A stretch of DNA of 58,497 nucleotides from Nocardia ninae NBRC 108245 (GTDB taxonomy: Bacteria; Actinomycetota; Actinomycetes; Mycobacteriales; Mycobacteriaceae), in the NCBI RefSeq assembly GCF_007990755.1, contig NZ_BJXA01000058.1, positions 1 to 58,497 on the forward strand, given 5' to 3'. Position 1 is the stretch's first letter, and the number at the start of each line of letters is the position of its first letter. Both the position numbers and the translations under genes were made by a program. Shown here piece after piece: positions 15,476 through 50,151 of this stretch. The notes beneath the pieces were generated by a model. It saw only the letters and a program-made list of their open reading frames with translations, was not told the origin of the DNA and made no database searches.

Positions 15476-16480
15476 TCATGGGCCCGCCTCGCGGGGAGTG
15501 ATCAGGAGGTGGGGGTCGCCGGTTTCGGGGTGCGGGACGCGGAGGGCGCGGACGCCGAACACGGTGTCCACCACCTCTGGAGCGAGGGCGGTGGCCGGCT
15601 CGGCAAGGGGATGGGCGGTGCCGTTGTGTAGCACCAGGATTCGGTCGCAGTAGCGGTCCGCCAAGGTCAGATCATGCAGCGCCATGATGACGGTTCGTTG
15701 CAGGGTGCGGGTCAGCGCGAGGAGTTCGAGGCGGTGAGTGATATCCAGGTGATTCGTCGGTTCGTCCAGCAGTAGCACCGGGGTGTTCTGCACGAGAGCG
15801 CGGGCGAGCAGCACTCGTTGGCGTTCGCCGCCGGAGAGTCGATGCACCGGTCGGTCGGCGAATCCGGTCAGGTCCACCGTGGCCAACGCCTCTTGGACAG
15901 CCTGCTGTTCGAGCGGCGAGCCGGCACCCCATGGCGGCAGGTACGGGGTGAGGCCCAGCGCCACTACCTCGCCCGCGCGCAGGTCGGCGGGTGGGCGCTC
16001 GTCTTGCGCGACCATCGCGACCGTGCGGGCCCGTCGGCGCGACGACATCTCGTGCAGCACTTCGTCATCCACCGTGACCCGACCACGCACCGGCCGCCGC
16101 ACCCCGGCGAGAGTCTGCAACAGCGTCGACTTCCCAGCGCCGTTCGGCCCGACGATCCCGATCGTCTCGCCGGGCTGGATCGCGAAACTCACGTCAGTGA
16201 CCACCGTCCGACGCCCAGCGGCGCACGTGAGTCCGTGCACTTCTAATGCCCCAGTGGTGCTGGTGGTTTCGACGCTGCCGTGCGCAGTTCGAGTGGTGCT
16301 GGTGGATTCGGCGACGCCGTATGCAGTGCCAGTGGTTTCGGCGATGCCCTGTGCAGCGCCAGCGACGGCGGAGGTTTCCATGACGCCGCTTCCAGTGGGT
16401 TCCTTGCCGTTGACGCGACGATCGGCTGCCTCGCTCAGCTCTGGCTTCGTGCGGCCCCGGGCAGTTTCGTTGCTGCTCAT
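15476..16480 (-). CDS. ABC transporter ATPase, corrinoid type (BtuD-like), with repetitive N-terminus
   Basis: A 334-residue ATPase. The nucleotide-binding domain starts near residue 78 (ALEVHGLTCAAGRRTVVTDV). Walker A is GPNGAGKSTLL, the signature LSGGERQRVLLARAL, Walker B VLLLDEPTNHLD, and the H-loop IMALHDLTLA. The start at 16480 overlaps the permease stop as ATGA. The first ~78 residues are atypical: low complexity, Thr/Ala/Ser rich, with three 30-bp DNA repeats at 16263-16361. Similar ATPases lack this tail, so a later start near LEVHG cannot be excluded, though no good RBS is seen there. It energises uptake with the flanking permease and binding protein. Confidence 0.88.
   Translation of the reverse strand: MSSNETARGRTKPELSEAADRRVNGKEPTGSGVMETSAVAGAAQGIAETTGTAYGVAESTSTTRTAHGSVETTSTTGALEVHGLTCAAGRRTVVTDVSFAIQPGETIGIVGPNGAGKSTLLQTLAGVRRPVRGRVTVDDEVLHEMSSRRRARTVAMVAQDERPPADLRAGEVVALGLTPYLPPWGAGSPLEQQAVQEALATVDLTGFADRPVHRLSGGERQRVLLARALVQNTPVLLLDEPTNHLDITHRLELLALTRTLQRTVIMALHDLTLADRYCDRILVLHNGTAHPLAEPATALAPEVVDTVFGVRALRVPHPETGDPHLLITPREAGP
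16263..16361. repeat. Three 30-bp imperfect repeats inside the ABC ATPase N-terminus
   Basis: Units at 16263-16292, 16302-16331 and 16332-16361, each starting GTGG(T/A)TTCG. Copies 1 and 2 are separated by a 9-bp GTGGTGCTG. Being multiples of three, they keep the reading frame and encode the variants GIAETTGTA, GVAEST and GSVETT on the minus strand. Probably slippage or expansion of a linker. Confidence 0.75.
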
Positions 16481-17508
16481 GACTCCCCGAACCGGTAACG
16501 CCGTCGCCCCATCAGAAGCAGGAAGGTGGGTGCGCCGATGAGCCCGGTCAGCACCCCGACGGGGATCTCGATGGGGCGAACCACGATTCGAGTGGCGGCG
16601 TCGGCCACGACGAGGAACAGTGCACCGCAGAGCGCACAGGCGGGTAACAGATTGCGGTGACGCGGGCCGACCAGCAGACGAGCCGCGTGCGGGACAACCA
16701 GCCCGACGAAGCCGATACCACCGGAGACCGCCACGAGCACGCCGACCAGCACCGCGAGCAACACGAACAGCGCAATGCGGAGCTCTTTGACGGGAACGCC
16801 CAGCGAGGCGGCGGTATCGCCGCCGACGGTCAGCGCGTCGAGCCAGCCACTCGCACCTAGCAGCGCGACACCCGCGACAACTACCACGCTCAGCGGCAAC
16901 GCGATTCGCGTCCAGTCGGCGCCCGCGAGGCTGCCGAGCAACCAGAACAGCACCGCCTGGGCGTGCGAAGGATCCGGGCGGCGGAAGATGAGATAACTGC
17001 TCAACGCGGCGAACCCGGAGCCGAGCACGGTGCCGGTGAGCACCAGCCGCAACGGCGTCAGCCCGCCTTGCATGACCGCAATCAGGAACACCAGCCCCGC
17101 CGCGACGAACGCCCCGACGAGTGCACCACCGGACAACGCCCACACCCCGGCCCCGGCGAACAACCCGGAGGTGATGACCGCAGCCGCGCCGACGCCCGCA
17201 CCTGACGAAACTCCGAGCAGATACGGGTCGGCCAGCGGATTACGCACCAGGGTCTGCATGGCCGCGCCCGCCAGCGCCAGCCCAGCGCCGACGATCGCGG
17301 CGAGCACAGTTCGCGGCACCCGCAGCTGCCACACGATGGTGTCCAAGCCGAAGTCGGTGGGCGCCTCCCCGGTCACCCGGTGTTGCAGCACCGTCAATAC
17401 CGAAGAGACGGGCAAGGTTTCCGCACCGAATCCGGTGGCGAGGATCATCGCGCAGATCAGTAAGGCCCCGAGGACAGGGAAGATGATCGCCGCACGGACA
17501 CGAGTCAT
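16477..17508 (-). CDS. FecCD-type ABC permease (BtuC-like)
   Basis: A 343-residue polytopic permease of the FecCD/BtuC family with about ten hydrophobic segments. Signatures: WQLRVPRTVLAAIVGAGLALAGAAMQ, RNPLADPYLLGVSSGAGVGAA, and the ATPase-coupling region GGIGFVGLVVPHAARLLVG followed by EIPVGVLTGLIGAPTFLLLM. The ATG at 17508 overlaps the stop of a 26-codon ORF (17505-17585) as ATGA. The frame is open further upstream, but the MTRVRAAIIFPVL start gives the normal N-terminus. First full-length gene behind the cobalamin riboswitch. Confidence 0.92.
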   Translation of the reverse strand: MTRVRAAIIFPVLGALLICAMILATGFGAETLPVSSVLTVLQHRVTGEAPTDFGLDTIVWQLRVPRTVLAAIVGAGLALAGAAMQTLVRNPLADPYLLGVSSGAGVGAAAVITSGLFAGAGVWALSGGALVGAFVAAGLVFLIAVMQGGLTPLRLVLTGTVLGSGFAALSSYLIFRRPDPSHAQAVLFWLLGSLAGADWTRIALPLSVVVVAGVALLGASGWLDALTVGGDTAASLGVPVKELRIALFVLLAVLVGVLVAVSGGIGFVGLVVPHAARLLVGPRHRNLLPACALCGALFLVVADAATRIVVRPIEIPVGVLTGLIGAPTFLLLMGRRRYRFGES

Positions 17509-17585
17509 GCCGCCACCCCGCCAGCGCTGGGTTTCGGCGTGCCGCAAGGGCACTGCCACACGATTGGCTCGCTGCGATCGCTCAT
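17505..17585 (-). CDS. short ORF coupled to the permease gene
   Basis: A 26-codon ORF whose stop overlaps the permease ATG (ATGA) and whose ATG overlaps the stop of the previous short ORF (also ATGA). It has one Trp, a CPC motif (WQCPCGTPKP) and ends PSAGGVAA. The end resembles the end of the upstream short ORF (EPSAGAAAA), because both come from the same DNA repeat. No family is recognised. It may be a leader peptide used to couple translation from the riboswitch to the permease, or a by-product of the repeat. Expression is not shown. Confidence 0.45.
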   Translation of the reverse strand: MSDRSEPIVWQCPCGTPKPSAGGVAA

Positions 17586-17745
17586 GCCGCCGCCGCGCCT
17601 GCGCTCGGTTCCGGCATGCTCCAAGGGGGCCGTGATGCCTGTCCCGCGCCAGCGGTCGGTTCCGTCAGGCCCCAGGAACGCTGCCAATTGACGCGCTCGC
17701 TCATGCCCGCCCCGGCACCGGCGGTCGGCTGCGGAATGCGCCGGG
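17506..17745. repeat. four imperfect ~44-bp repeats in the permease leader
   Basis: Copies start at 17506, 17583, 17634 and 17702. On the plus strand they share CATGCC(G)CC ... CCAGCG(C/G)T(G/C)GG(T)TTC(C)GGC(A/G)TGC. Copies 1, 2 and 4 carry a minus-strand ATG at the same place; the ATG of copy 1 is the permease start. The repeat thus duplicates the translation-start region of the permease upstream. Confidence 0.65.
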
Positions 17746-17758
17746 CGTACCGGCGCAT
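17582..17758 (-). CDS. short ORF downstream of the cobalamin riboswitch
   Basis: A 58-codon frame from ATG 17758; an internal ATG at 17704 gives 40 codons starting MSERVNWQRSWGL, and an upstream GTG at 17776 gives 64. It contains three Trp and four variants of the motif (E/Q)P(S/T)AG. It begins after the riboswitch aptamer and ends ATGA-coupled to the 26-codon ORF. The start is uncertain because no strong RBS is seen at any choice. No known family. Confidence 0.4.
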   Translation of the reverse strand: MRRYARRIPQPTAGAGAGMSERVNWQRSWGLTEPTAGAGQASRPPWSMPEPSAGAAAA

Positions 17759-17794
17759 GGTTCGGTGGTGCTCCACAGGCAAGTCGCGGCCTCT

Positions 17795-17935
17795 CCAGAG
17801 TTGTCCCGGCAGGGGAGGTCTGACTTTCGCCGTGAGGGCGATCACAGTGGCGCGACCGTTCCGGAATTGCACCGGATTCCCGCACCCGCCGAGGGTTGAC
17901 GGCAGAACTCTACCGTTCGGTCGGGTTCGCGGCGT
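17795..17935 (-). ncRNA. cobalamin riboswitch
   Basis: Read on the minus strand, the region contains the conserved cobalamin aptamer parts in the right order: GGGTGCGGGAATCCGGTG then CAATTCCGG (the GGGAA-NCGGTG-NAA-NCCG core, around 17861-17888), then GCGCCACTGTGATCG (around 17837-17852, the GCCACTG element), then AAGTCAGACCTCCCCTGCC (B12 box, 17808-17826). It lies ~300 nt upstream of the BtuC-like permease on the same strand. In this class adenosylcobalamin or a related corrinoid binding lowers expression. Boundaries are approximate. The platform could act on translation, since no clear terminator with a U-run follows. Confidence 0.92.
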
Positions 17936-49288: not shown

Positions 49289-49419
49289 CCCAGCTCCTAT
49301 CCGCGCAGGCCGGAGACCGGGCGCGCACAGCTAACCACTAGGCTCATGCCCGTGAGTGTGCGCAGCGACCGAACCATCAACACAGCGTCGAGGACGACGG
49401 AGCCGAGCGAGGCACAGTC

Positions 49420-50151
49420 GTGAGTCTCGTGCTTTTGCCTGCCGTCGATGTCGCCAACGGCGAAGCTGTGCGCCTCGTACAAGGTGAGGCCGGTAGCGAA
49501 ACCAACTACGGCTCCCCCCGCGAAGCCGCCCTGGAATGGCAGCGCGCGGGCGCGGAGTGGGTGCACCTGGTCGACCTGGACGCGGCGTTCGGCCGCGGCT
49601 CGAACCGCGAACTGCTGGCCGGGGTCGTCGGCGAACTCGACGTCAAAGTGGAGCTGTCCGGTGGCATCCGCGACGACGACACACTGGAGGCCGCCCTGGC
49701 CACCGGCTGCGCCAGGGTGAACCTGGGCACCGCCGCGCTGGAGGATCCGGTGTGGTGCGCCAAGGCCATCGCCAAGCACGGCGAACGCGTCGCGGTCGGC
49801 CTGGACGTGCGCATCATCGACGGCGACTACCGGTTGCGCGGCCGCGGCTGGGTCAGCGACGGCGGCGACCTGTGGGAGGTGCTCGAGCGCCTGGAGCGCG
49901 ACGGCTGCTCCCGCTACGTGGTCACCGACGTCACCAAGGACGGCACGCTGACCGGCCCCAACCTGGACCTGCTCCGCGAGGTCTGCGCCGCGACCGACGC
50001 ACCGGTGATCGCCTCCGGCGGCGTCTCCACCATCGAGGACCTGATCGCGATCGCCGAACTGGTGCCCGACGGCGTCGAGGGTTCGATCGTCGGCAAGGCG
50101 CTCTACGCGGGCCGGTTCACGCTGCCCGAGGCGCTGGCCGCGGTGAGATGA
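49420..50151 (+). CDS. priA: phosphoribosyl isomerase A (HisA/TrpF bifunctional)
   Basis: A 243-residue TIM barrel: [112 protein letters not shown]. Asp at both phosphate-isomerising strands is present (AVDVA and VTDVT). In actinobacteria this protein serves both HisA and TrpF; the dual role is inferred from the clade. GTG start at 49420 with a weak RBS; ATGA overlap with the next gene. Confidence 0.95.

Follow-up and report, generated by a model that had tools for sequence, protein, structure and literature searches.

Between a cobalamin riboswitch and a permease gene of Nocardia ninae NBRC 108245 lie two short open reading frames, each joined to the coding sequence that follows by an ATGA overlap. 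Do these upstream frames (uORFs) pass ribosomes from the riboswitch to the permease, or are they decayed duplications, the two accounts put forward in the original prediction for this locus? The locus belongs to a stretch of 58,497 nt (hereafter the window; contig NZ_BJXA01000058.1 of assembly GCF_007990755.1), in which the leader occupies the minus strand. Read from 17893 down to 17505, it consists of an AdoCbl-type aptamer, the two ATGA-joined short frames, and the start of a FecCD permease at ATG 17508.

Anatomy of the leader

The features of the leader, in the order of the minus strand, are as follows.

17805..17893, minus strand: candidate AdoCbl (B12) riboswitch aptamer (RF01482; 46.7 bits and E 2.2e-7 when 701 bases were searched)
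17851..17855, minus strand: TCGCG, putative loop L5 and candidate pairing partner of L13 (from the sequence)
17790..17796, minus strand: GGAGAGG, Shine-Dalgarno (SD) motif of uORF1 (from the sequence; anti-SD duplex -7.0 kcal/mol over the 20 nt before the TTG)
17784..17788, minus strand: CGCGA, putative loop L13, complementary to L5 (from the sequence)
17582..17782, minus strand: uORF1, 66 codons, with a probable TTG start assigned from relatives and a TGA overlapping ATG 17585
17701..17764, minus strand: repeat copy 1, 5' part missing (model R1 positions 19-81, 19.4 bits, E 0.0136, a weak match)
17635..17701, minus strand: repeat copy 2, degenerate (profile positions 13-79, 25.4 bits)
17582..17627, minus strand: repeat copy 3, 3' half only (profile positions 36-81, 24.0 bits)
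17505..17585, minus strand: uORF2, identical with the full repeat copy 4 (81 nt including both ATGA ends; profile positions 1-81, 63.3 bits), 26 codons, with a TGA overlapping ATG 17508
16477..17508, minus strand: FecCD-family (BtuC-like) ABC permease, presumed target of the riboswitch (PF01032, 302.7 bits)

The aptamer score falls below the RF01482 gathering score of 50, so a default Rfam scan of the window lists nothing. The same genome harbors more AdoCbl-like aptamers at two loci (L002 and L004; 32.7 and 22.9 bits), both below the same cut-off. Among NCBIfam models, those of an F420-0 permease and a BtuC permease match the downstream gene, both below their cut-offs. Folding of the whole leader (z -1.22 against shuffles) gives no clear picture.

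The stop of uORF1 (TGA 17584-17582) overlaps the start of uORF2 (ATG 17585), and the stop of uORF2 (TGA 17507-17505) overlaps that of the permease, bearing out the two ATGA joints that had been predicted. The predicted length of the second frame also stands. The first had been given 58 codons from ATG 17758, but its frame stays open 5' of that codon, and a start at TTG 17782 is more likely because an NTG occupies the same place in 50/50 Nocardia leaders. The peptides end in PEPSAGAAAA and TPKPSAGGVAA and both frames contain Trp codons, as the original prediction described; the tail motif placed there at the peptide ends also recurs inside uORF1, which holds three degenerate repeat copies. Searches of both peptides against NCBIfam and Pfam yielded nothing at E<=0.01.

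Taken alone, the chain in the window is weak evidence, and the weight is carried by the comparison of 50 leaders described below: when the 274-nt spacer is shuffled, 1812/20000 shuffles (9%) still connect to the permease. This figure and the degenerate state of three of the four window copies would suit functionless chance frames in G+C-rich repeat debris. Such an explanation is nonetheless very improbable, as the entry frame is unbroken in 50/50 leaders of several lengths and stops are avoided in the repeat's frame among the copies examined.

Leaders of other Nocardia

A permease query was used to collect relatives, of which the best 80 of 104 were taken. Forty-nine of these are from Nocardia, and together with the window they provide 50 leaders that could be read upstream of the permease. 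The leaders were located with an anchor containing CGCG and NTG (only A, T, or G as the first base), the final form of which lost no leader; the presence of CGCG in 50/50 leaders is thus by construction. Just 3' of the putative L13 stand 32 TTG, 13 ATG, and 5 GTG codons. Many of the leaders come from close relatives, and the 50 comprise 34 distinct local sequences. The L5 motif TCGCG is recovered by regular expression in 48/50 leaders and is visible with altered flanks in the other two. Because L5 is invariant, covariation gives no test of the kissing loop, and the pairing is putative; complementary L5 and L13 motifs and the NTG are in place in 50/50.

In 44/50 leaders, a uORF runs from the L13 NTG to a TGA overlapping the permease A/GTG, with 7 codons in 38 of them, 13 codons in five (N. 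cyriacigeorgica), and 16 codons in one (N. donostiensis). For 3 of the 44 (L066, L067, and L071) the permease start is inferred, the tblastn match beginning 54-72 nt further in within the same open frame. In two further leaders (L079 and L082; Nocardia paucivorans and N. brevicatena) the NTG frame is fused in frame to the permease, which itself therefore seems to begin inside the riboswitch hairpin. The remaining four carry repeats between the NTG and the permease, and the chain is unbroken in each: one 33-codon frame in N. tenerifensis, 26 codons and one further frame in N. suismassiliense, 7 codons and then a 78-nt unit sharing an open frame with the permease in N. colli, and the two frames of the window. 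Thus the expectation that a permease normally follows its cobalamin riboswitch directly does not hold here, the usual state in Nocardia being a 7-codon uORF with an ATGA joint (38/50 leaders). Nor is a chained leader unusual within the genus, and for Mycobacterium tuberculosis ppe2 a uORF under riboswitch control, overlapping the next start as AUGA, has already been published (PMC11260477).

Since the frame from NTG to permease is unbroken across the 50 Nocardia leaders, a relay from riboswitch to uORF to permease looks genus-wide. Outside the genus, 0/26 loci (of 31, with L111-L115 left out) have such an anchor, which was made from Nocardia leaders and leaves room for other uORFs. Passing of ribosomes from riboswitch to permease is the better-supported of the functions first proposed, because a frame from the L13 NTG reaches the permease in 50/50 leaders. 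The peptides are another matter. Absence of the short frames from relatives had been named as telling against the original prediction, and the repeat-derived ORFs are indeed missing from 46/50 leaders, so their peptides are not conserved, whereas a short uORF and its coupling are.

The riboswitch might instead act mainly on transcription, through Rho or intrinsic termination, with translation of the uORF only shielding the RNA. The ppe2 paper has a results heading on premature termination in the leaders of metE and ppe2 (PMC11260477), and Rho is named in the title of a paper on an M-box uORF (PMC12810186). In Nocardia, however, the conserved parts are located at the uORF initiation region, and mainly transcriptional control is judged improbable.

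Most of the permeases also have initiation signals of their own. Of the 45 direct leaders, counting N. tenerifensis with the 44, 39 have GGAG or GAGG <=20 nt from the permease start. The six leaders that lack both motifs are the six with 13- or 16-codon uORFs, and their permeases would therefore lean on coupling.

A dispersed repeat at gene starts

The extra ORFs of the window consist of tandem, degenerate copies of a 77/80-nt repeat that is dispersed, with matches elsewhere in the genome and in many Nocardia genomes. "Decayed duplications" was therefore an apt description of their origin, as tandem and mostly degenerate copies of a dispersed element; as the sole account of the frames it falls short, a relay function being better supported. 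The repeat unit taken from alignment A1 reads ATGAGCGAGCG.AGCGAGCGAA.CATG...GCGCATGCCGGAGCCGAGCGCCAGCGAGGTGC.GGC(ATGA). A1 contains 22 copies and the profile was built from 8 seeds, with window copy 4 (17505-17585) among both the seeds and the A1 rows. Among the 50 leaders, the repeat is found at nhmmer E<=0.01 only in the window, L038, L040, and L041. In the genome of the window, 150 candidates were scored with model R1, and 120 matched at E<=1. Under stricter filters, the model matches 138/148 genomes of the genus at E<=0.001 and 152/298 genomes of the order at E<=0.01. Tandem arrays occur, with five copies in one array at L155. The PSAG tails of the window peptides are the 3' end of the repeat, which elsewhere is read as PEPSASEVQA, PSASEVQA, and the like.

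A second copy in the window (49352-49423, plus strand) has a GTGA start, 23 codons, and a GTGA end, and stands directly before a 243-codon ORF. Judged by its N-terminus, this ORF looks like HisA. In another family of the order (L180-L184), the repeat precedes a 318-codon ORF in five genomes and is tandem in L180. In a sister genus, 14 weak matches were checked. Two are well-formed short units at gene junctions, one of 35 nt in front of a 389-codon ORF (L226) and one of 65 nt in front of a 447-codon ORF (L231). Eleven are chance-like, and one (L241) resembles a unit but is truncated where the stretch ends. At L226:1501-1539, a 35-nt mini-unit whose start resembles that of the Nocardia repeat lies between two co-directed frames, presumably argB and argD. 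Mycobacterial interspersed repetitive units (MIRUs), reportedly described by Supply et al. in 1997, are the nearest named class of repeat; a primer pattern for the MIRUs of M. tuberculosis was found in 0/396 sister-genus genomes.

The contexts of the repeat were read at 70 loci from the top of the 120 matches, which gave 66 arrays after duplicate removal. ORFs were called coding-like when they had 80 codons or more and showed the G+C pattern typical of coding frames. Such an ORF starts exactly at the terminal NTGA in 61/66 arrays, and no other single offset within 30 nt gives more than 6. In controls, a coding-like ORF starts at 361/837 same-strand RTGA sites elsewhere, at 46/3300 random positions, and, on the opposite strand at the 5' end, in 3/66 arrays. 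In 15/49 testable arrays, a coding-like frame from upstream also ends at the first NTGA.

Full copies were required to have nhmmer E<1e-6 and an NTGA at both ends, for which 51 of 52 were kept and one without both NTGA was dropped. Among these 51, 24 measure 77 nt, 19 measure 80 nt, and 8 have other lengths from 53 to 83 nt. The length is 3n+2 in 48/51, and in 5 of the 8 copies of unusual length, which is close to chance. With two lengths so prevalent, much of the 3n+2 excess is explained by founder copies; the copies share ancestry and the counts are not independent. The frame is open to the terminal TGA in 46/51 full copies. A stop wholly inside the unit occurs in frame in 1/51, compared with 26 and 34 in the other two frames and with 38% in shuffles. 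Variability is about equal across codon positions (0.337/0.318/0.351 and 0.364/0.363/0.340 in the two length classes), with third positions more variable in the first ~20 nt of both classes and less so in the last 36 nt. Because codon positions vary about equally, it seems to be the frame rather than the peptide that is kept, with no overall sign of selection on the peptide.

The same data bear on the idea that Trp codons and (E/K)PSAG peptides stall ribosomes and so control the permease, as in a sensing leader peptide. The tails and Trp codons are common to both frames, but the repeat is missing from 46/50 leaders, no overall codon periodicity appears, and the tails are the repeat 3' end, seen before other genes in its PSASEVQA-like forms. 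With peptides that amount to repeat DNA, a sensing role is hardly credible and was rejected.

A stronger challenge comes from the 3' end of the unit. The motif RRGGYG lies <=20 nt from the terminal NTGA in 52/63 arrays, and the mean anti-SD energy before that NTGA is -8.8, against -7.0 in shuffles. In the window, the permease ATG is preceded by its own SD-like GGGGTG, with an anti-SD duplex of -10.2 kcal/mol compared with -5.6 to -7.9 in six unfused orthologues with an empty site. With so strong an SD of its own, the permease may not need ribosomes fed from the riboswitch, and direct initiation is the main rival: the repeat would have decoupled the permease from the riboswitch, with GGGGTG of the last copy, or a promoter, driving the permease and the uORFs being incidental. 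A promoter would find a parallel in the senX3-regX3 region, where MIRUs are present and promoter activity is mentioned in the part of the source available (PMC4213456). Yet the frame from TTG still reaches the permease in 4/4 carriers, although these differ in copy number and frame. A predicted hairpin also covers the SD-like motif in 6/6 units and the ATG in 5/6 (that of the window being the exception), a coverage not beyond chance. Decoupling is considered unlikely. The shared 3' hairpin itself, predicted in 6/6 unit folds, was set aside as support for any reading because these folds do not exceed shuffles in stability (z only -0.01 to -1.8).

Proposed relay and comparison with known systems

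Relatives record several states of the joint. N. brasiliensis and N. vulneris (L036, L037, and L039) have an empty ATGA joint, N. colli carries a single 78-nt unit close to the consensus, N. tenerifensis has one degenerate unit that is read through, and N. suismassiliense and the window have several units each. A single change on the permease tree accounts for the four carriers, with weak branch support (76/37). Between N. suismassiliense and the window, the permease is 98% identical, the number of units differs, and the first joint differs by one base, which shifts the frame of its ATG; both chains still connect. The best reading of these states is that an insertion of a MIRU-like element at the ATGA joint, possibly a single event, lengthened a conserved ribosome relay.

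The leader is probably a ribosome relay gated by B12 that has taken up a MIRU-like repeat. At low B12, ribosomes would bind GGAGAGG (17796-17790), begin at TTG 17782, and translate uORF1. Termination at TGA 17584-17582 would be followed by a restart on the overlapping ATG 17585 and translation of the 26 codons of uORF2, and termination at TGA 17507-17505 by a restart on permease ATG 17508. When B12 is bound, L5 (TCGCG) would pair with L13 (CGCGA) between the Shine-Dalgarno motif and the TTG, closing the entrance. The usual Nocardia relay would be a single 7-codon uORF, as in most leaders examined, and a MIRU-type element (77/80 nt) would have entered its ATGA joint in the ancestor of the clade that includes the window. 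Because the unit brings a start, an open frame, an SD-like motif, and a terminal ATGA, the insertion, the later change in copy number, and the one-base difference would all have kept the permease connected. More tentatively, the repeat family of Nocardia and other Mycobacteriales may be a mobile, portable translation relay that is nearly harmless before genes; it is possible, if doubtful, that it here turned a one-step hand-over into a multi-step one, whose number of hops could tune the B12 signal.

According to the accessible parts of the sources, MIRUs appear mobile, insert at start codons, and couple the unit ORF to the gene with a -4 nt spacing (PMC12548453), range from 40-100 bp (PMC2734929), and form units of 77 bp and 53 bp at senX3-regX3 (PMC4213456). 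Their spread is disputed: one source assigns them to many mycobacteria (PMC12548453), whereas another confines those of senX3-regX3 to M. leprae and the M. tuberculosis complex (PMC4213456). The Nocardia units, mostly 77 or 80 nt with one of 53, are both tandem and dispersed, with the same start-codon overlap. The repeat matches the described anatomy of MIRUs in length, dispersal, start-codon overlap, and open frame, a likeness drawn from descriptions of MIRUs rather than from sequence comparison. In a literature search that reached few subscription papers, no report of a Nocardia family of such repeats or of this leader was among the matches listed, and in the available parts of the literature on MIRUs and ppe2, no description of an insertion inside a riboswitch-uORF joint was found. 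A term search of the main text of the ppe2 paper gave 0 occurrences each of Nocardia and MIRU (PMC11260477). What is new is apparently a B12-riboswitch uORF relay, apparently general in Nocardia, that is extended by a MIRU-like repeat and whose function is read from the sequence.

The closest known system is the B12 riboswitch of M. tuberculosis ppe2 with its uORF, uPPE2 (Kipkorir et al. 2024, PMC11260477). In the portion of that study available, reporters show that translation of the uORF is needed and that termination-reinitiation predominates. The Nocardia leaders share the AUGA-type overlap of ppe2; the B12 aptamer (below the Rfam cut-off in the window) and the expression-platform hairpin with L13 and the uORF initiation region have putative counterparts here. 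The uORF stop overlaps the next start as NUGA, as in the ppe2 type, directly at the permease in 44/50 Nocardia leaders and via repeats in 4, with 2 fused. Unlike ppe2, the Nocardia target is a FecCD permease, and the Nocardia uORF usually has 7 codons and a TTG, ATG, or GTG start. Genes downstream of the ppe2 type lack their own SD, whereas GGAG or GAGG is present in 39/45 direct Nocardia leaders and GGGGTG in the window; with an SD in front of most Nocardia permeases, this difference speaks against carrying the ppe2 mechanism over unchanged. Also unlike ppe2, repeat units extend the relay in one Nocardia clade, a relay that here is read from sequence.

Control by a coupled uORF, as in ppe2, is suggested as the ordinary state of the B12-type permease leader across Nocardia, and the fused, 7-, 13-, 16-, 33-, and 66+26-codon forms are natural variants for comparison. 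The window and its relatives also offer a natural experiment on how a MIRU-like repeat can enter a regulated operon and leave it intact. In M. tuberculosis fpg1, the length of the preceding tandem repeat goes with the level of expression, according to the part of the source available (PMC2734929). With the Nocardia leaders, coupling and own initiation as the mode of action of such repeats become directly testable against each other.
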